A stretch of DNA of 64,000 nt from assembly GCF_000331245.1 (NCBI RefSeq), contig NZ_ANFZ01000014.1, forward strand, positions 62,001 through 126,000. The letters run 5' to 3'. The stretch is from Blastomonas sp. AAP53. GTDB taxonomy: Bacteria; Pseudomonadota; Alphaproteobacteria; Sphingomonadales; Sphingomonadaceae. Both the position numbers and the translations under genes were made by a program. The notes beneath the pieces were generated by a model that saw nothing but the letters and a program-made list of their open reading frames with translations, made no database searches and was not told the origin of the DNA. This document shows positions 51,397 to 60,685 of this stretch, in pieces (the first letter of the stretch is position 1; every line of letters starts with the position of its first letter).

Positions 51397-52018
51397 GGTA
51401 GCAAACTGATGACACTTGCCCCGCGGAGTCAATTGTCGTCGAATTCCTAACATCATTTGTCATTCCTAGCCGCGACTGCGCCTTGCAGTGGATCAGGAAC
51501 GCTCCCCGACGGTGTCGGAGTGCAGCAGTTTGACCGATGGACGGGTGACGAGACCATATGGTCTCGGGTATCGGCCCACACCTCTTCGAAAACGTCTGAT
51601 ATCTGTGCCAAAATATCCGTTTGGGAACTCGGCGCGCTTGAAGCGTCATTGGGTGTGTTCCCATGCGCGCCATCGAGGCATTCGAGGGGGCTGCTCATGC
51701 CGAAAACGCACGTCGGCGGTTACCGCAGGCCTTTGTGAGCCCTGTCGATTTCGAACAAGAAGCTGGCCTGGCCTGAACGAGCCTGCCTGGGTGTCCACCA
51801 AGCCGGCAGCAGGCCAGACACATCTTGCGAAGATAGAGATTCCTGATATCTCAATTGCGAAGACGTTTTCCACTCAGGGATCATCGATACCCTTCGAATA
51901 CATGCGAAGCCTTTTCCAAAAAATCACAGCTTGCAATTCAATGGGTATTTTCAGGTAAGATTTTTTGACAGCTTCAGAAGTTTTGAATCTTACCGGTTAT
52001 CATATAAGATGAGATTTT
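51397..52018. other. Gene-free stretch left of the lasso cluster
   Basis: I see no gene. It holds an 18-bp perfect palindrome (51549-51566), a pair of 9-bp inverted arms GGTAAGATT/AATCTTACC (51954-51962 and 51986-51994) bracketing TTGACA at 51965-51970, and a marked fall in GC in its last 150 bases. The promoter of the B1-kinase-cyclase genes must be here; TTGACA with TCTTAC 17 bases later is one weak candidate. Confidence 0.45.
51549..51566. promoter_or_regulatory. 18-bp perfect palindrome, operator-like
   Basis: CGAGACCATATGGTCTCG is self-complementary throughout. It lies between the divergent exported-protein gene and the lasso cluster. Confidence 0.4.
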
Positions 52019-52267
52019 ATGATCAGCATGTCTAGCACCGTAGCTTTCAATTCCGACCTTATTTTTTCAGAGATGGATGGCGATTTTATTATGCTCGACG
52101 TTGCGAGCGGAAAATACTTTCACCTCGATTCCATCGGCTCTGAGATTTTCCGAGAAGTAAAAGAGCCCCGACTAGTTGCCGATTTGTGCGCGGTATTAGC
52201 GACCCGCTTCCAATCAGAGCCTGGCCAGATCCAAACGGACACCTTGCAATTCTTAACTGAAATGTAA
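52019..52267 (+). CDS. Lasso-peptide leader-binding protein B1 (PqqD-like RRE), shortened at the C terminus
   Basis: The 82-residue protein is a PqqD-like RiPP recognition element. B1 binds the precursor leader and delivers it to the B2 peptidase. The core fold is seen in DGDFIMLDVASGKYFHLDSI, then GSEIFREV and ATRFQ...DTLQFLTEM. Family members usually continue with a short G-L-V segment; here a TAA stops the frame after TEM, and the following in-frame codons would read SKGLVHISY before the next stop at 52295-52297. So the gene looks shortened by a nonsense change of about nine residues, perhaps still functional. Start: ATG 52019 or 52028. The DNA is A/T-rich. Confidence 0.82.
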   Translation: MISMSSTVAFNSDLIFSEMDGDFIMLDVASGKYFHLDSIGSEIFREVKEPRLVADLCAVLATRFQSEPGQIQTDTLQFLTEM

Positions 52268-52436
52268 TCCAAGGGACTCGTGCATATTTCATATTGAAAA
52301 TATTCACATCTATTTCAATGCAATTCGATTTTTCTTTTACGTTCTATTTTATAAAATTCCGATGTAGCTCAGTCAAAATGAACTCGATAGATCGGCGATA
52401 TCATGGAAACGGCAGTACAGAGGGTGTTTTCGTGTA

Positions 52437-53369
52437 ATGTCTGAAGCCGATTTGCCTCGATTTTTTTACTCGCTTTATGGGCTGGTAATTTGCTGCGAAC
52501 GGCCATTGGCTTTTCTGCCATCGTCGGCCGCGACCTCACCGGACATCACAATCGAATTTGCGGCTTTGGAAGACCGGCAAGACACGCCGCTGGTTGTCGC
52601 AGACAAATTCTCTGTTTTTGCGGACATGGAGGCCCGGTTCACGTCGGAGCTGGGGTTCGCAGCTGCCATTTCATCTGGCCGCCTCATAACCGTCGACGTA
52701 GCCTCTCACCTTTCCGAAGCAGGATTGCATGCGGCACTGTTCGGGCCGGCAATGGGTTGGCTGCTCTTTCAGAGAGGTCTGGTGCCGTTGCATGGCTGCG
52801 GGGTCGAAATAGCTGGGAGACTGGTGGCCATCGTCGGGCACAGCGGAGCAGGCAAGTCGACGCTTGGCCGGGCTCTCGTAGCCCGCGGACACCGGCTTGT
52901 GGGAGATGATCAATTGATCGTCGATCCAGTGACCGCCCACGTGCCCTCGGGTATGAACGCAATGCGTCTTTGGCAGGATTCAGCGCACCGCCTTGGCGAT
53001 ACAGTTTCGGAAGGAGCGCGCATCGCTTCTGGATACGACAAATATTATGTGGACCTTGGCAGCCCGTCATCGATGGATAGTTCTCCTCTGGAGCTGGTGC
53101 TCGCCCTCGGCTGCGACCCGAGTCGGGACCGCCCGCACTACGTGTCGCTCAACAGGCAGCAGGCTACTGTCATGCTCTGCACCCATGTTTATCAGCGCCA
53201 TGCGGCGTATGCGGCCGGTTACGCGCCAGCCGTGCTCGAGTGGAGCGCGCAAGTGGCCGTCAAGGTCCCCGTAATAGCGCTCGATCGACCAAACAATTTC
53301 GAGGCCCTCACCGGCATCTGCGAAGACATTGAGCGTCTGGTCGCAGGCCAGCAAAGCGCGGCGAGATGA
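52437..53369 (+). CDS. HPr-kinase-like lasso-peptide kinase
   Basis: A 310-residue protein related to HPr kinase/phosphatase C-terminal domains. The P-loop GHSGAGKST is at residues 134-142, with RLVGDDQLIV at about 153-162 in the place where HPr kinase has its second nucleotide/metal segment. In paeninodin-type clusters, a homologous kinase phosphorylates the C-terminal Ser of the lasso precursor. Both precursors here end in Ser, so the same reaction is inferred. The ATG at 52437 is the first in frame. The end overlaps the cyclase start (ATGA), showing tight coupling. It is not a sugar-catabolism HPr kinase: there is no ptsH nearby. Confidence 0.88.
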   Translation: MSEADLPRFFYSLYGLVICCERPLAFLPSSAATSPDITIEFAALEDRQDTPLVVADKFSVFADMEARFTSELGFAAAISSGRLITVDVASHLSEAGLHAALFGPAMGWLLFQRGLVPLHGCGVEIAGRLVAIVGHSGAGKSTLGRALVARGHRLVGDDQLIVDPVTAHVPSGMNAMRLWQDSAHRLGDTVSEGARIASGYDKYYVDLGSPSSMDSSPLELVLALGCDPSRDRPHYVSLNRQQATVMLCTHVYQRHAAYAAGYAPAVLEWSAQVAVKVPVIALDRPNNFEALTGICEDIERLVAGQQSAAR

Positions 53370-55291
53370 GTGCAATCTGCGGGCTATGGCTTGAAAGGGG
53401 TCATTCCGACGCCGCTCAAGGCGTAGCAGCAATGCAGGCTGCCCTGGCGATGTACGGCCGCGACCGATCTGCCCGATGGGAAGGCGAGGACGGCTCCGTT
53501 GCCATTGCCTGCCAGCTCATGCGCCTGGTGCCGGAAGATCGCTTCGATCGGCAGCCCCTGGCGGATGAAACGGGGCGCTTTCATCTTGTGGCGGATGCGC
53601 GGATCGATAACCGCACCGAGCTGGCGGCAGATCTGGCCATCGCGCCTGAACGATTGCAGAGCATGTCCGACTCCGCGCTGATCCTGGCCGCGTGGACAGC
53701 CTGGGGCGCTGCCTCCATCGAGCGGTTGTACGGTGATTTTGCCTTTGCCGTCTGGGATCTCGAACAACGGCATTTGCACCTGGCCCGCGATTTTCCCGGT
53801 GGCAGACCGCTGTTCTATGCCCGAACACCCAACGGGCTCGCCTTCGCGTCCATGGCAAAGGGTCTTCATGCCCTGCCGGACGTCGCTTACGCAGCGAACA
53901 TCACCACAGTGCGCGATCTTCTGGGCTTCGTGCCGATGAAGGGAACCGGGAGTTTTTTCGCAGGAGTCGACCGTGTCGAGCCAGGCACCCATGTCTGCTT
54001 CGCCGCAGGCGGCGAACGATCGATCAGGCGCTGGTATGTCCCGCCGCCACAATTGCCCGACACTGGCGATCCGCGGCCACAGATTGAAGCCTTTCGCGCA
54101 GTGTTTGATCGTGCAGTTGCCGATCGGTTGCGAGGGAACGCAGGCTTTGCATCGTTGTTGAGCGGCGGTCTGGATAGCACCGCCGTCACGACCTCCGCCG
54201 CGATGAAGTTGGCCGAAACGGGTCAACGGCTCACATCCTTCACCCATGCACCCCACCCGGATGCGCGCGTGCTTGAAAGGCCAGACCGCTTTGGTGACGA
54301 GAGCCAACACGCCCGCCGCGTGGCAGAGCTATATCCCAACATTGACCATGTCATTGATCATGCGCCCGGGCGGATGATTGGCGATGACCGCGATGCAAGG
54401 TTCCATTATCAAGAGTATCCGTCTCTCAATCTCTGCAACGAGGTTTGGATGACCGAACTCGCGCGGCAAGCGGGGGCGCTTGGCCGCGGAACGGTCGTCG
54501 TCACGGGCGCGTGGGGCAACATGACAATCAGCGATCATGGATTGGAGCGGCTGAACGCACTGCTTCATGGCGGCAAGCTGTTGCGCTGGCTGATCGAGGC
54601 ATTCGCTGTACTGCGCAGGGGCGCGATGACCCCGTTGGCGCTGGCCAACTGGAGCCTGCGGCCTTTCTTGCGGCGCAAGCATTTCGAAGCACTGCAGCGA
54701 CGGTTTGGCCGGCCAACAGGTCATCCGCTCAACGTTTCCCTGCTTCGCGCCGATCAGGTGTCTGAGGATCGATACGATAGCACCGGGAAAACCGCTCGTA
54801 GTCGGCGCGATCGGATCTTGGGGCTATTTTGGCAGCAGGAACTTGCTGCCCTGTCCAACAAGGGGCTGCTGGCAAGATTTGGGGTCGATTATCGGGATCC
54901 CACATCTGATCGGCGCTTGATCGATCTGTGCCTTGCCTTGCCGGACTCGCTGTTCTTGCGCCATGGCCAGCCAAAGTGGCTTTACCGCCAGGCGTTCCAC
55001 GACCGGTTGCCAACTACAGTTCTGGAGGAGCGCAGGAAGGGGTTGCAGGCAGCCGACTGGGCCAGCCGATTGGCAGTGGCGCGCGACGACCTCCTCGATG
55101 AAGCGCTGCGTGCCCAATCCAACCTGCAGGCCCAGACGTTGTTTGATCTCGACGGCCTCGAGCGCCTCGGCCGCTCTATTCCGGATCCGGACAAGGCAGC
55201 GCCATCTGATGACCTGAAGTATCGATTGCAGTTTCTGCGCACATTATCGGCCACGCATTTCCTACGCAAAGTTCAGCGCGATAACTCCTGA
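53366..55291 (+). CDS. Lasso cyclase C (asparagine-synthetase-like)
   Basis: The 641-residue enzyme forms the macrolactam: it adenylates the side chain of an Asp or Glu in the core and closes it on the new N-terminal amine. The N-terminal glutamine-hydrolase-like domain (MSAICGLWLERG...) is followed by the ATP-pyrophosphatase domain with SGGLDS at 266-271. The length fits proteobacterial lasso cyclases. It begins inside the kinase stop codon and is the last + strand gene of the cluster. The stop at 55291 faces the precursor genes across 525 bp. Confidence 0.9.
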   Translation: MSAICGLWLERGHSDAAQGVAAMQAALAMYGRDRSARWEGEDGSVAIACQLMRLVPEDRFDRQPLADETGRFHLVADARIDNRTELAADLAIAPERLQSMSDSALILAAWTAWGAASIERLYGDFAFAVWDLEQRHLHLARDFPGGRPLFYARTPNGLAFASMAKGLHALPDVAYAANITTVRDLLGFVPMKGTGSFFAGVDRVEPGTHVCFAAGGERSIRRWYVPPPQLPDTGDPRPQIEAFRAVFDRAVADRLRGNAGFASLLSGGLDSTAVTTSAAMKLAETGQRLTSFTHAPHPDARVLERPDRFGDESQHARRVAELYPNIDHVIDHAPGRMIGDDRDARFHYQEYPSLNLCNEVWMTELARQAGALGRGTVVVTGAWGNMTISDHGLERLNALLHGGKLLRWLIEAFAVLRRGAMTPLALANWSLRPFLRRKHFEALQRRFGRPTGHPLNVSLLRADQVSEDRYDSTGKTARSRRDRILGLFWQQELAALSNKGLLARFGVDYRDPTSDRRLIDLCLALPDSLFLRHGQPKWLYRQAFHDRLPTTVLEERRKGLQAADWASRLAVARDDLLDEALRAQSNLQAQTLFDLDGLERLGRSIPDPDKAAPSDDLKYRLQFLRTLSATHFLRKVQRDNS

Positions 55292-55816
55292 TTTGCGAGA
55301 CGAACAGATTAAGGACCGCAATGACGCCGCGATGATCGATCATTGGTTTTCGTCCACTTTCACCGATCAGCGGAACTGAGGGGATATGCGCAGGCGATAT
55401 TGGGCCGATCCTGTGCGCGGCCTTGTCATGGACAGTTATTGCAGCGCGAACGCTGCAAACTTCTCTCACGCGGCTTTCGTGAGGATTTTTCGTGGGAAAT
55501 CCGCTACGGTGCGCATGAAAGCAGCGCGGAACGGGCTTTGACGGAGAACTGTTCAGGCCAACTCGAACAACAGCGCATGTTCTGTAACAGCGCCATCGAT
55601 GCTGCGCTACACGGTCGCCAGATGTTTCCGGGCGTACTTCAGTTGCCTCACTTCAAGCTTGCGCTCGAAAACCCGGCCATTGGCCGCCACTTGACTGGGT
55701 GCCAAGTCGGCGTGTCGATGTCAGACGAGACCGCCATGGGGAGGCGCTGATGAGGAGCGGAACGATGCGGGAGCATTCATTGACCACCGGTCAGCCAAGC
55801 CCCCGCAATTGCGCAC
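55292..55816. other. Stretch between the lasso cyclase and the first precursor gene
   Basis: No gene is recognised. A + strand open frame 55343-55750 (135 codons) has no ribosome site and an Arg/Cys-rich composition, so I leave it uncalled. No additional WSKP-type precursor leader is found on either strand. It probably contains terminators of the two converging units. Confidence 0.4.
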
Positions 55817-55999
55817 TCAGGAAAGAAAGCCCCCGTCCACAAAATCAGTGGGGGCAGCTGACATCGTGATGCTTACGATGTCGACTTCATCCAGGGTGGG
55901 CTTGCTCCAAGTGCGACGTGCTGAATTTATTTTATCATCTGCCGACTGCACCACACCATCAGTCGATCCGCAGTTAGCTTCAAGTGCATCAATACTCAT
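55817..55999 (-). CDS. Lasso-peptide precursor A1
   Basis: A 60-residue precursor. The leader is 46 residues: after MSIDALEANCG it carries the recognition segment RRTWSKPTLDEVDI (Trp in place of the common Tyr of the YxxP motif) and ends ITM, with the Thr at position -2 that B2 peptidases need. The core is SAAPTDFVDGGFLS: Ser1 would be linked to Asp9, giving a nine-residue ring and a five-residue tail ending in Ser14. The ATG at 55999 has AGGGGA eight bases upstream and is conserved in the second copy; a GTG two codons earlier is not. It is a - strand gene with its own promoter-like sequence. Confidence 0.88.
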   Translation of the reverse strand: MSIDALEANCGSTDGVVQSADDKINSARRTWSKPTLDEVDIVSITMSAAPTDFVDGGFLS

Positions 56000-56037
56000 G
56001 AGCACGTTCCCCTGTCCTGACCATTTACTGGTCTCGA

Positions 56038-56066
56038 GAGCTACCTAGCCCACATCAATGGGTCAA
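56038..56066 (-). promoter_or_regulatory. Candidate promoter of precursor A1
   Basis: On the - strand TTGACC (56061-56066) and TAGCTC (56038-56043) are separated by exactly 17 bases. The same pair with the same spacing is kept upstream of A2, while the spacer sequence varies, which supports function. Confidence 0.55.
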
Positions 56067-56160
56067 GGTTCTTTTGTGTTTCCGGCCCCTCGGGGGGTGG
56101 CGGCTTTCTGGAGAGGATGCTGCGCCGATCCCGACCTTATGAATTGGTTCGGGGGTGACA

Positions 56161-56250
56161 ATGAAAAAGCGCTACGGCGCGGATTTCAGAGCCATCTGGC
56201 TGTTTGCATCATCTTGCCGCCCGCGTCGGCTTTGCCTGACGGCAGACTAA
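56161..56250 (+). pseudogene. Possible relic of an IS3-type transposase OrfA start, copy 1
   Basis: A 29-codon frame reads MKKRYGADFRA before losing any similarity. The start resembles the first residues of IS3/IS911-type OrfA proteins (KKRYSxDFxA). The match is only about 11 residues, so this is a weak call. It lies inside unit 1 of the precursor duplication, on the opposite strand. Confidence 0.25.
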
Positions 56251-56280
56251 CCAAGCGCCCGAAAAGTTGTCATGTTCCAA

Positions 56281-56460
56281 TCAGGAAAGAATAGTCGAAT
56301 CGGTAGTACCGGGGCCACCTGCCATTGTGACACTTGCGATGTCGACTTCGTCCAGGGCGGGCTTGCTCCAAGTGCGACGCGCTGCATTTATTTTGTCATC
56401 CGCCGACTGCACAACACCATCAGTCGATCCGCCTTTACCTTCAAGTGCATCAATACTCAT
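56281..56460 (-). CDS. Lasso-peptide precursor A2
   Basis: A 59-residue precursor, shorter than usual gene-calling limits. The leader has 46 residues, 39 identical to A1, with the same RRTWSKPALDEVDI segment and Thr-Met at positions -2 and -1 (SVTM). The core is AGGPGTTDSTILS: Ala1 to Asp8 gives an eight-residue ring and a five-residue tail ending in Ser13. ATG 56460 has AAGGGA upstream with the same spacing as A1. Ring size, tail and C-terminal Ser are predictions. It lies between A1 and the nucleotidyltransferase gene, all on the - strand. Confidence 0.87.
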   Translation of the reverse strand: MSIDALEGKGGSTDGVVQSADDKINAARRTWSKPALDEVDIASVTMAGGPGTTDSTILS

Positions 56461-56498
56461 GAGCGCGTTCCCTTATCCAAGCCATTTACATCGGTTTG

Positions 56499-56527
56499 AA
56501 GCTACCTAGTCCACTCCACGGGGTCAA
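56499..56527 (-). promoter_or_regulatory. Candidate promoter of precursor A2
   Basis: TTGACC (56522-56527) and TAGCTT (56499-56504) on the - strand, 17 bases apart, aligned with the pair upstream of A1. Confidence 0.55.
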
Positions 56528-56615
56528 GATTATTTTACATTTACAGCCGCTCAAGAGGTAGCGGCTTTCTGGAGAGGATGCGGCGCCAATCCCGACCTGA
56601 TGGATGGGTTCGGGA

Positions 56616-56732
56616 ATGAACACGACAAAAAAGCGTTACAGCACGGATTTCAGAGCCACCTGGCTGCTTGCATCACCTTGCGCCGGCGTTGTCTACGGCC
56701 CTGCGGCGAAGGCGCATCCAGCACAACTCTGA
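56616..56732 (+). pseudogene. Possible relic of an IS3-type transposase OrfA start, copy 2
   Basis: The frame reads MNTTKKRYSTDFRATWLLAS, of which the first 14 residues look like an IS3-type OrfA N terminus; the rest does not. It is the counterpart of the frame at 56161-56250 and has one more codon near its start. It overlaps nothing else but ends 15 bp before the stop of the nucleotidyltransferase gene. Confidence 0.3.
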
Positions 56733-56746
56733 CATAGGCCATGCCT

Positions 56747-57988
56747 TCACCCGGCAAGCCAGGCGCTGATCCGCGAAAGAGCCGTAGCTTCTGCCACGTT
56801 GTGCTCCGTGCGCACGTTGGCGATCAGGTCGGGAAGGCGCTGCTGGAGGAGACGGCGCCACAGCACCGGATAGCACATCACGATGGCCAGCGAATTGGGT
56901 GAGCGCGGGAACTGCTTGGCAAGCTCTGACGGCGCCGGAAAGGCCTTCGAAAGAACGAACGACAGCTTGCCCGCCAGCGTCGGCTTTGCCTGAACGCCCT
57001 CCAGGATCGCGACATCGTTTCTTGCAGCAAAGCTCCGCAACATCATGTCCGCTGCCTGATGGGCCACAGTGTCGTCAACATCCGCCAGCGGCAGCAGATC
57101 GTGCGGCTGGCCTTCCAGCGAGCCCGGCCATTGCTGTTGCAGCACCCGCAACACCAATGCCACGCCGCGGGTCACCCCCTGCTCTGCCGCATCGGCCCAC
57201 ACGGTCTTCCAATCGATGGAATGCGTTGCCAGCAGCCAGTGAAGATCCGGCAGGATCAGGGGGCCAATGTTGAATTGATGCTCGTAGACGGCATGGACGC
57301 ACAGATGCACCAGCATGTCTTCGGGCGTGGGGAACCGGATATCGTGATGGGCAACGCGGCTGGACTGCGCGCGCGCCAGGACGGCCTCGGCCCGCAATGT
57401 CCGATGCGCGTCCGAATAGCGCGTGCTTTCGGTCAATTGCACGTGCAGTTCCACCGCCGCGCGGCCATCGGGCGCGATCAGGCGCGGCAGGTGCTTTGAC
57501 CCTTCCAGATAGGCCTCGATATGCCCGGTATAATACGGATCGCGCGCAAACCCGGCTGCCTGCAGCCGCTCATAGGCGTCGATGGCCTCGGGCCTTGCCA
57601 CAAGCACATCGATATCGCGCAGCGGTCGCAGGCTGGGCTCGGGATAGGCAAACTCGGCAAGATAGGCGCCCTTCAGAAAAACATGGGCAATTCCCGCATC
57701 CTCCAGCGTCTGGTGGACGCGAACCATATCGCCCTTCGCGGCCAGCGCCCGCAGGGCCATGCTACGGCGCAGCGGCTGCAGCTGGTCGCTGAGGTCTGGC
57801 GGAACAAGCTCGAGCAGATGCGCCTGCTTGAGCGCGTAATGCAGGTAGGGAAGGAAGCGATGCTCCTGCCCCCAATCGAAAATCTGGGCCCAGTCCGCTG
57901 CAGAAAGGGCACGGACCTTTTCCGGGCTCAGTGATCCGGGGCGGCAGATGAGCGCAAGCGCAAGCGCCTTCAGTGCGGTACGTTCCAT
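56747..57988 (-). CDS. Nucleotidyltransferase-family protein of the lasso cluster
   Basis: A 413-residue protein of the uncharacterised nucleotidyltransferase type (PF14907-like). The key segment is AHVFLKGAYLAEFAYPEPSL followed by RPLRDIDVLVARPEAI, with the Asp-x-Asp metal motif; the N-terminal part is helical (LPYLHYALKQAHLLELVPPD). Such genes recur in lasso clusters with kinases, but their job is unsettled: a tailoring nucleotidyl transfer, or help with the phosphate chemistry, are both possible. Its ATG at 57988 overlaps the exporter stop by one base (TAATG), so it is coupled to it. Confidence 0.82.
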   Translation of the reverse strand: MERTALKALALALICRPGSLSPEKVRALSAADWAQIFDWGQEHRFLPYLHYALKQAHLLELVPPDLSDQLQPLRRSMALRALAAKGDMVRVHQTLEDAGIAHVFLKGAYLAEFAYPEPSLRPLRDIDVLVARPEAIDAYERLQAAGFARDPYYTGHIEAYLEGSKHLPRLIAPDGRAAVELHVQLTESTRYSDAHRTLRAEAVLARAQSSRVAHHDIRFPTPEDMLVHLCVHAVYEHQFNIGPLILPDLHWLLATHSIDWKTVWADAAEQGVTRGVALVLRVLQQQWPGSLEGQPHDLLPLADVDDTVAHQAADMMLRSFAARNDVAILEGVQAKPTLAGKLSFVLSKAFPAPSELAKQFPRSPNSLAIVMCYPVLWRRLLQQRLPDLIANVRTEHNVAEATALSRISAWLAG

Positions 57989-59742
57989 TATGACCCTGCC
58001 TTGACCAGTCGGTCGCTGACCTGCGCCCAGGGACCGGCAGCAACGAGCCGGCCGTTTAGCATGACGAGGACCTGATCGGCAATCATCGCCGCCGCTGGTG
58101 TATGCCCGATCAGCACGACCGTCGTGCTCCCTCGCAGCGCAGCAACCGCTTCCAGAATGCGCGCTGCGGCCGCCGCGTCCAGCGCACTGGTGGCCTCGTC
58201 CAGGATCAGCAGCTGGGGTTGCTGCAACAACGCCCGCGCCAGCGCAATCCGTTGCCGTTCGCCACCGGACAGGCCCGCGCCGGCCTGACCGATCTGCGTG
58301 TCGAGACCGTCAGGCAGGTCCAGAACGAAGTCCGCAGCCGCCCGGCGCAGTGCCGTTGCAAGGCTGGCATCGTCAGCAGATGAACTCGCCCAGAGGAGGT
58401 TGTCGCGGATCGTGCCGGGAAACAGGAATATTTCCTGCGGCATATAGGCGATCGAACGCATCCAGCCTTGCCGGTCGGCGCCTGACACCGGCTTTCCGTC
58501 GACCAGCAACTGGCCGGCATCTGGCGTGACGAGGCTGATGATGACATCGGCCAGGCTGCTCTTGCCCGCGCCCGATGGGCCCATGATCGCCGTGATCTGC
58601 CCCGCCGTTATCGTCAGGCTAACCCCATCCAGCACCGGTTGTTCGCGACCAGGAAAGGACACGCGGACGTCGCGAAGCTCGATGGCCCGGGAAAGCGGAA
58701 CGGGTCGAGGCTCGCTTGCGATATCCGTCTGCCGGGCAGCGCGGCTGGCAGCCAGAAACTCGGCGACCTCGGCAAAGGCAGGCAGCATGTTGATGCTCCG
58801 GCTCGCGTGCTGCTGCGCGTTCATCAGCAGGGGCATGAGCCTGGCAAACACGATTACCAAAGTCAGCAGCTCCGGCAGAGGAACCGCCAGCAGCTTCAGG
58901 CCCAGATACACATACAGCGCGAGCAGCGCGCCCCCGCAAACCTGGAACATGGCCCGCGACAGCGATGTGTTGCGGGCAAACGACAGCTGCGCATGGCGAA
59001 CCCCGGCAATCGCATCCTTCACCCTTGAAAGGTGACGGCGTTCATTCCCCAGTACCTTGGCCAGCTTGATGCTGCCAATGCTGTCCTGCAGGGTCTGCAG
59101 CAGGCTCCGGTTGGCCGTGCCCTGCAACTGGCCCAGCGCATAGGCTTCACGGTTGAACCGCCCCAATGCCAGAAGGATCACTCCGCTCGAAACAAGCACG
59201 ATGGCCGTCAGGCCGGGCGCGATGATCAGCGCGGCACCGAGATAGGCGAGCGCTGCAGCAATGGCCGCAAGCAGGGCCAGTGCAGACTGGACACCAAGGC
59301 CGACCCGGCTCATTTCGACCAGCATCAGATTGGCAAGGTCTGCAGGCCGATGCGGCGCAATCCAGCGCCATTCGGCTGACAGAAGCGCTTCAAAACAATC
59401 CTGCCTGAGCCCATCAACAAAATCGAACTGCAGCTTGACGATGGCTTGATCGCGGGCATAGCCCACGGCAGACTGCAACGCGATCAGGCCGACAAATACG
59501 CTGAGCAGCCCCTCTGCGGTTGCAGGAATACCCAGATAGGCCAGAGCGGCCATCACGCCGTTGATGACGGCGTTGTCCGTCACCTGCCCCCCGATCACCG
59601 ACAACAGTTGCACGAGCAGAATGACGCCGACGCCTTCTGTCGCGCTGGCCGCTATCGTCAGCAGCAAAACGCCCGCCGCTCTGCCCGCCGGCACGCGGGC
59701 AAACAGAGCCGCAAGGTCAGGCAGCGCCTTCAGCCATGGCAT
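57988..59742 (-). CDS. Lasso-peptide ABC exporter (fused membrane and ATPase domains)
   Basis: A 584-residue half transporter: an N-terminal ABC membrane domain with about six helices (for instance PAGRAAGVLLLTIAASATEG, AALAYLGAALIIAPGLTAIV), and an ATPase with the P-loop GPSGAGKSS near 388, the signature LSGGERQRIALARAL near 490 and LLILDEATSALD near 509. It is the D gene that exports the mature lasso peptide and often gives self-protection. It starts in the stop of the B2 gene (ATGA). Confidence 0.92.
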   Translation of the reverse strand: MPWLKALPDLAALFARVPAGRAAGVLLLTIAASATEGVGVILLVQLLSVIGGQVTDNAVINGVMAALAYLGIPATAEGLLSVFVGLIALQSAVGYARDQAIVKLQFDFVDGLRQDCFEALLSAEWRWIAPHRPADLANLMLVEMSRVGLGVQSALALLAAIAAALAYLGAALIIAPGLTAIVLVSSGVILLALGRFNREAYALGQLQGTANRSLLQTLQDSIGSIKLAKVLGNERRHLSRVKDAIAGVRHAQLSFARNTSLSRAMFQVCGGALLALYVYLGLKLLAVPLPELLTLVIVFARLMPLLMNAQQHASRSINMLPAFAEVAEFLAASRAARQTDIASEPRPVPLSRAIELRDVRVSFPGREQPVLDGVSLTITAGQITAIMGPSGAGKSSLADVIISLVTPDAGQLLVDGKPVSGADRQGWMRSIAYMPQEIFLFPGTIRDNLLWASSSADDASLATALRRAAADFVLDLPDGLDTQIGQAGAGLSGGERQRIALARALLQQPQLLILDEATSALDAAAAARILEAVAALRGSTTVVLIGHTPAAAMIADQVLVMLNGRLVAAGPWAQVSDRLVKAGS

Positions 59743-60218
59743 CAGCGCGTCAGACCCTGGGGCACGTACATGCCAACCACCGTGAAGGTCGAAAAGCTTT
59801 CATTGCCCGTAACCTTCACCGGTCCGGTGGCAACCCAGGCATGCGCCTTCAGGCCGGCGGCGAGCTGGTCACGCGCGACGCCGAAAAACAGCGCATAGGG
59901 TATGCGGTACAGACCCAGCAGCGCGCGTGCGGCCAAAGCCTGAGTAAAGCAATTGGCATCGAAGGGCGTGTAGCTGGCCGCCAGACGAATGACCTGTCCG
60001 ATGGCATCTGCGCGCCTGCATTGGGCCTCGGTCGCCAGTGGAACCCACGCATTGACCCCAGCTGGCACGCCTACAAAACGCCCAAGATGACGGAAGGGCA
60101 CCAGAAGCACAGCAAGCCGCGCGATCCCCAGGGCCAACCAGGTCGGGGCCAGCCAGAGTTTCTGGAAACGCGGCAATGCCAGAAATGTGGCCACCTTGCG
60201 CGAAAGCCGGAATGTCAT
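59742..60218 (-). CDS. Lasso leader peptidase B2 (transglutaminase-like)
   Basis: A 158-residue PF13471-type cysteine peptidase that removes the leader from the precursor, working with B1. Catalytic Cys90 is in DANCFTQALAARALLG and His126 in KAHAWVATG; a second acidic residue completes the usual triad. B1 and B2 are separate genes as in many sphingomonads, and lie on opposite strands at the two ends of the cluster. It is the first gene of the B2-exporter-nucleotidyltransferase operon. Confidence 0.9.
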   Translation of the reverse strand: MTFRLSRKVATFLALPRFQKLWLAPTWLALGIARLAVLLVPFRHLGRFVGVPAGVNAWVPLATEAQCRRADAIGQVIRLAASYTPFDANCFTQALAARALLGLYRIPYALFFGVARDQLAAGLKAHAWVATGPVKVTGNESFSTFTVVGMYVPQGLTR

Positions 60219-60685
60219 GTCTGTTACCTGTCGTCCCTGCGATGTGTTCGCTCCGGGCTAGGTATCTGGTAAACAATGCGAAGGATAGTCCGTCAAATGG
60301 CGGCTGATCTCATTCTGCACGTGCTGGCGCAGGAACGACCGCTAACGGGCGTCTCCCCGACACAGAGCGATGCTGGCTGCAGGGTGCTTGCAGCAGGCGC
60401 AGGCACCACTCAGCACGCGAAGATCGGCCACGTGTCCGCAGATGCCGCTTGATGGCCACGAAAGAACTTGAGCCGCATGTCAGCGTTCAGCAAGAGACCG
60501 GCGGCTGCGGCATGTACAATGGTGGGTGGAGAGATGCCGCCGAACACGACGTCTTGTGAATGCGCAGATTTTGAAGCATAGGGAGTGCATAGACGGACTT
60601 GCGCACGGCGCGAGTGGCTCGGCCCGGCGCCTATCCCCGGGACAATCCGGCATCTTCCTGCCGATGATCGTATCTGGATTTCTTC
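60219..60685. other. Gene-free stretch between lasso B2 and the SulP gene
   Basis: No gene is seen. It must contain the promoter of the B2 operon (a weak TTGACG at 60291-60296 with TTTACC 17 bases later on the - strand is one option) and that of the transporter gene. The part right of 60500 resembles ordinary GC-rich DNA. Confidence 0.4.

Follow-up and report, generated by a model that had tools for sequence, protein, structure and literature searches.

A kinase- and nucleotidyltransferase-type lasso-peptide cluster with an apparently truncated B1 in Blastomonas sp. AAP53

Does the sphingomonad Blastomonas sp. AAP53 make phosphorylated lasso peptides? The question is raised by a gene cluster in a 64,000-nucleotide stretch of its genome (contig NZ_ANFZ01000014.1, positions 62,001 to 126,000 of the forward strand; hereafter the window, whose own numbering we use). 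A prediction made from the sequence alone had described there a complete, divided cluster producing two such peptides. The host genome amounts to 3.6 Mb in 28 contigs, with a stated completeness of 100. The genes concerned, with enzyme families named by Pfam and NCBIfam models, are as follows.

52019..52267, plus strand: B1, leader-binding PqqD/RRE protein, 82 codons (PF05402, 8.3e-12)
52268..52297, plus strand: frame behind the B1 stop, nine codons (SKGLVHISY) and then TGA, read by eye
52437..53369, plus strand: K, HPr-kinase-like peptide kinase, 310 residues (PF07475, Hpr_kinase_C, 6.3e-10)
53366..55291, plus strand: C, asparagine-synthetase-like lasso cyclase, 641 residues (PF00733, Asn_synthase, 2.4e-28; NF033535, 1.9e-70)
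55817..56005, minus strand: A2, precursor, predicted core SAAPTDFVDGGFLS, with W-x-K-P-x-L, T(-2) and a C-terminal Ser
56281..56460, minus strand: A1, precursor, predicted core AGGPGTTDSTILS, with W-x-K-P-x-L, T(-2) and a C-terminal Ser
56747..57988, minus strand: N, nucleotidyltransferase-like protein, 413 residues (PF14907, NTP_transf_5, 1.5e-46)
57988..59742, minus strand: D, ABC exporter, 584 residues (PF00005, ABC_tran, 2.7e-34; PF00664, 1.4e-12)
59742..60218, minus strand: B2, leader peptidase, 158 residues (PF13471, Transglut_core3, 1.4e-19; NF033537, 73.8 bits)

By its sequence, the cluster belongs to an established class, the lasso clusters that carry both a kinase and a nucleotidyltransferase. 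Our preferred reading, to which we give a probability of about 70%, is that it is such a cluster of a Blastomonas-type sphingomonad with a truncated B1, and that the pathway is probably weak or silent in this strain because the end of B1 has been lost to an in-frame stop.

Genes and enzymes of the cluster

Open reading frames and DNA together bear out the predicted gene order and strands: two units face each other, B1-K-C reading rightwards and B2-D-N leftwards, with A1 and A2 in between. Overlapping codons couple K to C (ATGA, 53366-53369), B2 to D (TGATG) and D to N (TAATG, 57990-57986). The predicted overlaps (ATGA, TAATG) are borne out with one exception: the TAATG at 52435-52439 before K has no link to B1, which ends at 52267, and its TAA closes an unrelated 47-codon frame. 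The assignment to a kinase-type lasso pathway with two Ser-ending precursors is backed by protein families, conserved residues and relatives.

Conservation was assessed in loci holding K together with C or B2, plus one half of the Blastomonas natatoria cluster (L055), using matches that cover at least 60% of the window protein; a column was called conserved if it is the same in at least 90% of relatives. K retains 12 of 12 such columns (54 relatives), including H119, K140, D157 and D158, which form the His-Lys-Asp-Asp set that PMC9266682 gives for lasso kinases and that is expected of an HPr-type kinase of the PadeK, ThcoK and SyanK type. All conserved columns are likewise retained in C (10 of 10, 54 relatives), N (9 of 9, 35 relatives) and B2 (6 of 6, 43 relatives, including C90 and H126). 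B2 exceeds the cut-off of the lasso B2 model NF033537, which is 33 bits. C, with its conserved columns and a PF00733 match above the cut-off, reads as an asparagine-synthetase-type cyclase; it scores 238 bits against the lasso cyclase model NF033535, under the cut-off of 525, as does the annotated lasso cyclase of our control cluster from Priestia aryabhattai plasmid pB2.3 (389 bits).

Compared with B. natatoria, the ratios of nonsynonymous to synonymous substitution rates (dN/dS) are 0.17 for K, 0.13 for C, 0.19 for N, 0.12 for B2 and 0.17 for D. Alignment with this relative thus indicates that the enzymes other than B1 are open and under purifying selection.

N had been assigned no role in the original prediction. 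The pseudomycoidin cluster (PsmK, PsmN), which we compare by description (PMC9266682), likewise pairs a kinase with a nucleotidyltransferase gene, and the nucleotidyltransferase counterpart there is reported to attach a hexose to the phosphate (PMC9266682, PMC8498205). In the window the PF14907 gene lies in the leftward unit and K in the rightward one, and the comparison with PsmN draws on that description only.

The end of B1

The claim that the cluster is complete is not borne out at B1, which an in-frame TAA at 52265-52267 ends after 82 codons. When 80 loci from relatives were searched with profiles built from the window proteins, the B1 of 60 out of 60 relatives extended 7-20 residues beyond this end, mostly with a hydrophobic pair (LV, LI), and the solved relatives 9x90_B, TbiB1 and TfuB1 continue 15, 16 and 10 residues, respectively, past the matched stretch. 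Where the window B1 ends, that of B. natatoria continues EAKGLVEVSK; the frame behind the stop, SKGLVHISY, resembles this and has a family-like ending. The PqqD model PF05402 matches the genome a single time, over domain positions 3-67 of 67 and across one TAA, so that the domain is intact only if read through the stop; the open frame alone reaches position 61 of 67. The full-length RRE typical of lasso biosynthesis at class level is thus lacking from the B1 open frame.

The part of B1 before the stop is 77% identical to its B. natatoria counterpart, with a dN/dS of 0.13, values without a sign of long decay, which argues that the stop is either recent or an error. From these alignments we consider that B1 has probably lost its last nine or ten residues, through an in-frame stop that appears recent. 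In two low-confidence structure models (mean predicted local distance difference test score of about 64) the missing residues are placed at the end of helix 3 and in a final strand.

According to published work, B1 binds the leader and is needed for efficient cleavage (PMC5067487, PMC10368454). In paeninodin B1, as reported, the leader runs along helix 3, weaker binding reduces cleavage and the C-terminal region may contact B2 (PMC5067487); BsfB1 is described as raising phosphorylation strongly and as required for cleavage (PMC10368454). Together with the truncation, these roles weaken the prediction that two phosphorylated lasso peptides are made here: such products seem plausible for the intact relative, B. 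natatoria, and doubtful for the window strain.

Precursors, relatives and layout

In a self-comparison A1 and A2 form a directly repeated pair, duplicated over 381 bp with 82% identity; their leaders agree at 38 of 45 aligned residues, their cores at 4 of 13. Both carry a YxxPxL-like leader with Trp in place of Tyr, Thr(-2) before the predicted cut site, an acidic residue at core position 7-9 and the C-terminal Ser of PadeK-, ThcoK- and SyanK-type pathways. The predicted cores, of 13 and 14 residues with 5-residue tails, would lie at the lower end of lasso size, since a 2026 review gives 13-33 residues (PMC13352647). Against the paeninodin precursor model NF033524 A1 reaches 18.4 bits, under the cut-off of 27, and A2 has no match in Pfam or NCBIfam, that model included; the Priestia control precursor passes it (57.7 bits), which places A1 and A2 outside that family. 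The predicted pathway is thus of the paeninodin/SyanK type, with precursors outside the NF033524 family.

Among 34 precursors of kinase loci judged by eye, the median core has 16.5 residues and the median tail 8.5; tails of five residues are the shortest and occur in four cases (A1, A2, B. natatoria and L050), and some other relatives have similarly small predicted cores. The 34 exclude loci with an ambiguous cut site or ring acid (L053, L075, L079, L081, L082, L089, L095), two without an acidic residue (L096, L116), extra precursors of L061 and L078, near-repeats (L073, L076, L086, L088) and rows judged to be chance frames; for L083 and L092 the cut was chosen to give a nine-residue ring. The idea that K or N sets the short tails found no support, as tail length has no link to N visible by eye. 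The precursor scan of kinase loci required a C-terminal Ser; among the matches listed without this filter, likely precursors of L109 and L115 end in Leu and Pro. In kinase-free loci the leader pattern gave a single convincing precursor (L040).

Three kinase-type clusters have precursors of interest in their own right. The cores at L096:16081-16182 and L116:9664-9765 (minus strand) hold no Asp or Glu, with Asn-Gln in place of the Asp-Gln of four sister precursors (L069, L080, L085, L086), and L061:2906-4793 contains four or more precursor genes in tandem, whose leaders are nearly identical and whose cores vary.

In the window, about 500 bp (55292-55800) separate C from A2 and include a 135-codon frame without a Pfam or NCBIfam family; the segment has no match in the 8 other searched genomes of the genus. 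A third precursor copy there was rejected, as self-comparison yields the A1/A2 pair only. Promoter and terminator predictions were not above shuffles (2 versus 2.8 and 8 versus 8.2, respectively). A 28-bp pattern, TTGACCC...CTAGGTAGCT, is common to 56039-56066 and 56500-56527 on the minus strand, ahead of each precursor, and may be a promoter; it was derived from these two copies, so its two matches are no independent evidence.

The intact counterpart is found in B. natatoria DSM 3183, which has the same genes, enzymes 77-89% identical and a core AGGPGVSDSGILS; unlike the window, it has an intact B1 (95 residues) and one precursor was seen. Its cluster is split between two contigs, each half close to a contig end, and the halves are taken to be adjacent; an overlap of the two contigs at the precursor was rejected, the longest common exact word being 11 bases. 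In nine genomes of the genus, the window's included, an 89% identical B2 occurs only in that taken to be B. natatoria (G207); G157 has a more remote B2 (44%). Similarity to B. natatoria begins at 51817 and ends at 60301, and is interrupted around the precursors. The left flank is present in another genome (G281) and the right flank on another G207 contig, so the block seems to be differently placed in the two species. Behind the B. natatoria N gene (L055:11360-11681), inspection by eye shows a stretch like that upstream of the precursors and, after it, a GC-rich palindrome close to the end of the contig, which may mark the border of a mobile element.

Of 298 genomes from the family, a set that includes the window's own, 106 have K-like proteins (E <=1e-8, any HPr-type kinase counted); N-like proteins were found in 46 (E <=1e-10) and PF13471 in 134. 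Fifty loci, the window included, hold B1, K, C and B2, with an N match in 38 and genes on both strands in 24; these loci were chosen for neighbouring K or B2 matches and are no random sample. The divided layout had been put forward as notable, and we rejected it as a novelty: B1, K, C and B2 themselves are spread over both strands in 16 of the 50 loci, that is, in 15 of the 49 relatives. Only one further locus with the narrower convergent plan was flagged by script (L057), and a looser form lies on an Azospirillum plasmid. The kinase-containing lasso clusters of this family have many gene orders, and a divided layout alone is no sign of novelty.

Kinase-containing proteobacterial lasso clusters have been published before (PMC5067487, PMC8498205, PMC10368454). 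Going by published descriptions, proteobacterial lasso clusters that carry a tailoring kinase, such as SyanK of Sphingobium yanoikuyae from the same bacterial family, share with the window split B1 and B2, C, an HPr-type kinase, an exporter and a Ser-ending precursor (PMC8498205, PMC9266682). The order described for proteobacterial kinase clusters is A B1 B2 C K D (PMC5067487), whereas the window cluster is divided into two units that read towards each other and also has an N gene and a second precursor. The Bsf cluster of Bradymonas sediminis is reported to hold A, B1, B2, C, D, K and N, as here, but BsfK targets Ser3 and the leader has Ile(-2), in contrast to Thr(-2) and the C-terminal Ser of the window (PMC10368454).

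The paeninodin-type Priestia control, from the Bacillota, shares C, A, K, B1, B2 and D, T-M before the cut and the Ser end, and K is 29% identical to its kinase in an alignment; unlike the window cluster, the control lies on one strand, ordered C A K B1 B2 D as in textbooks. Its kinase gene (L121:6989-7924) is annotated 'aldolase'. On plasmid p1 of Azospirillum sp. TSH100 (L119/L122), PqqD, K and C read rightwards and a precursor-like frame (leader WIRPVLEEVDIVTVTQ) and B2 leftwards, as in the window; it differs in a beta-hydroxylase gene between B1 and K, further genes between the units, D on the other strand, a core with Gly as its last residue, and the lack of an annotated N in that stretch. 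In that cluster PqqD, an Asp/Asn beta-hydroxylase, kinase and cyclase are consecutive, a 2OG-Fe(II) oxygenase gene lies near B2, and several Asp and Asn residues are present in the precursor core.

A literature search for 'Blastomonas' with 'lasso peptide' returned no paper; among the matches listed by a looser search, one paper mentions both Blastomonas and lassopeptides, the latter in another organism.

Predicted products and competing readings

By analogy with characterised homologues, B1 would bind and present the W-x-K-P-x-L leader of either precursor, K would add one or more phosphates to the C-terminal Ser of the linear precursor, and B2 would cleave after T(-2)-M(-1). C would then join residue 1 to Asp8 (A1) or Asp9 (A2), forming a ring with the tail inside; the phosphate may be extended by N with another group, a hexose in pseudomycoidin, and D would export the product.

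Several points weigh against our preferred reading. The dN/dS of B1 before the stop bears no sign of decay, the TAA may be a sequencing error, and the shortened B1, which retains most of the fold, may partly work. Both B1 models, built from two-row alignments, are of low confidence and served solely to locate the missing segment. The same genome also holds a second lasso-type cluster (L002, G000:C8:53145-56477), with a cyclase-like frame and a 228-codon protein of B2 type that is probably a fused B; this fused B protein may substitute for B1, and its leader-binding part is unmatched by PF05402. In a first alternative account the cluster is intact and active, the stop being a sequencing or assembly error or the short B1 sufficient, and its products are two lasso peptides that bear a phosphate or possibly a hexosyl-phosphate. 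The remaining genes have open frames that show purifying selection, and the nine family-like codons behind the stop are what an absent or very young stop would leave. The TAA is nevertheless present in the searched assembly, and none of the 60 relatives has a B1 that ends so early, so we consider intact, active production unlikely, though the most credible of the alternatives.

Improbable, in our judgement, is a second account, in which a five-residue tail is too short for threading, so that the products are linear or unthreaded branched-cyclic phosphopeptides. The window tails are the shortest among the 34 precursors by eye, and a related class of linear phosphopeptides with an RRE, a kinase, a nucleoside triphosphate (NTP) transferase and an exporter exists (PMC13381572). 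The core gene set of that class, as given there, has no cyclase, however, and the window has a conserved lasso-type cyclase and B2; 13 residues also fall within the review's range for lasso peptides (PMC13352647). A bolder extension of the threaded scheme, which we regard as a long shot, is a minimal phospho-lasso family with 8-9-residue rings and 5-residue tails, in which a phosphate or hexosyl-phosphate added to the C-terminal Ser by K and N would be the stopper that holds the tail.

The reading we prefer, a kinase/nucleotidyltransferase lasso cluster with a truncated B1 and a probably weak or silent pathway, brings in a sphingomonad cluster that is uncharacterised and has predicted cores close in size to the smallest lasso peptides described. 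The natural pair of an intact B1 in B. natatoria and a truncated one in Blastomonas sp. AAP53 could probe the role of the C-terminal end of the RRE.

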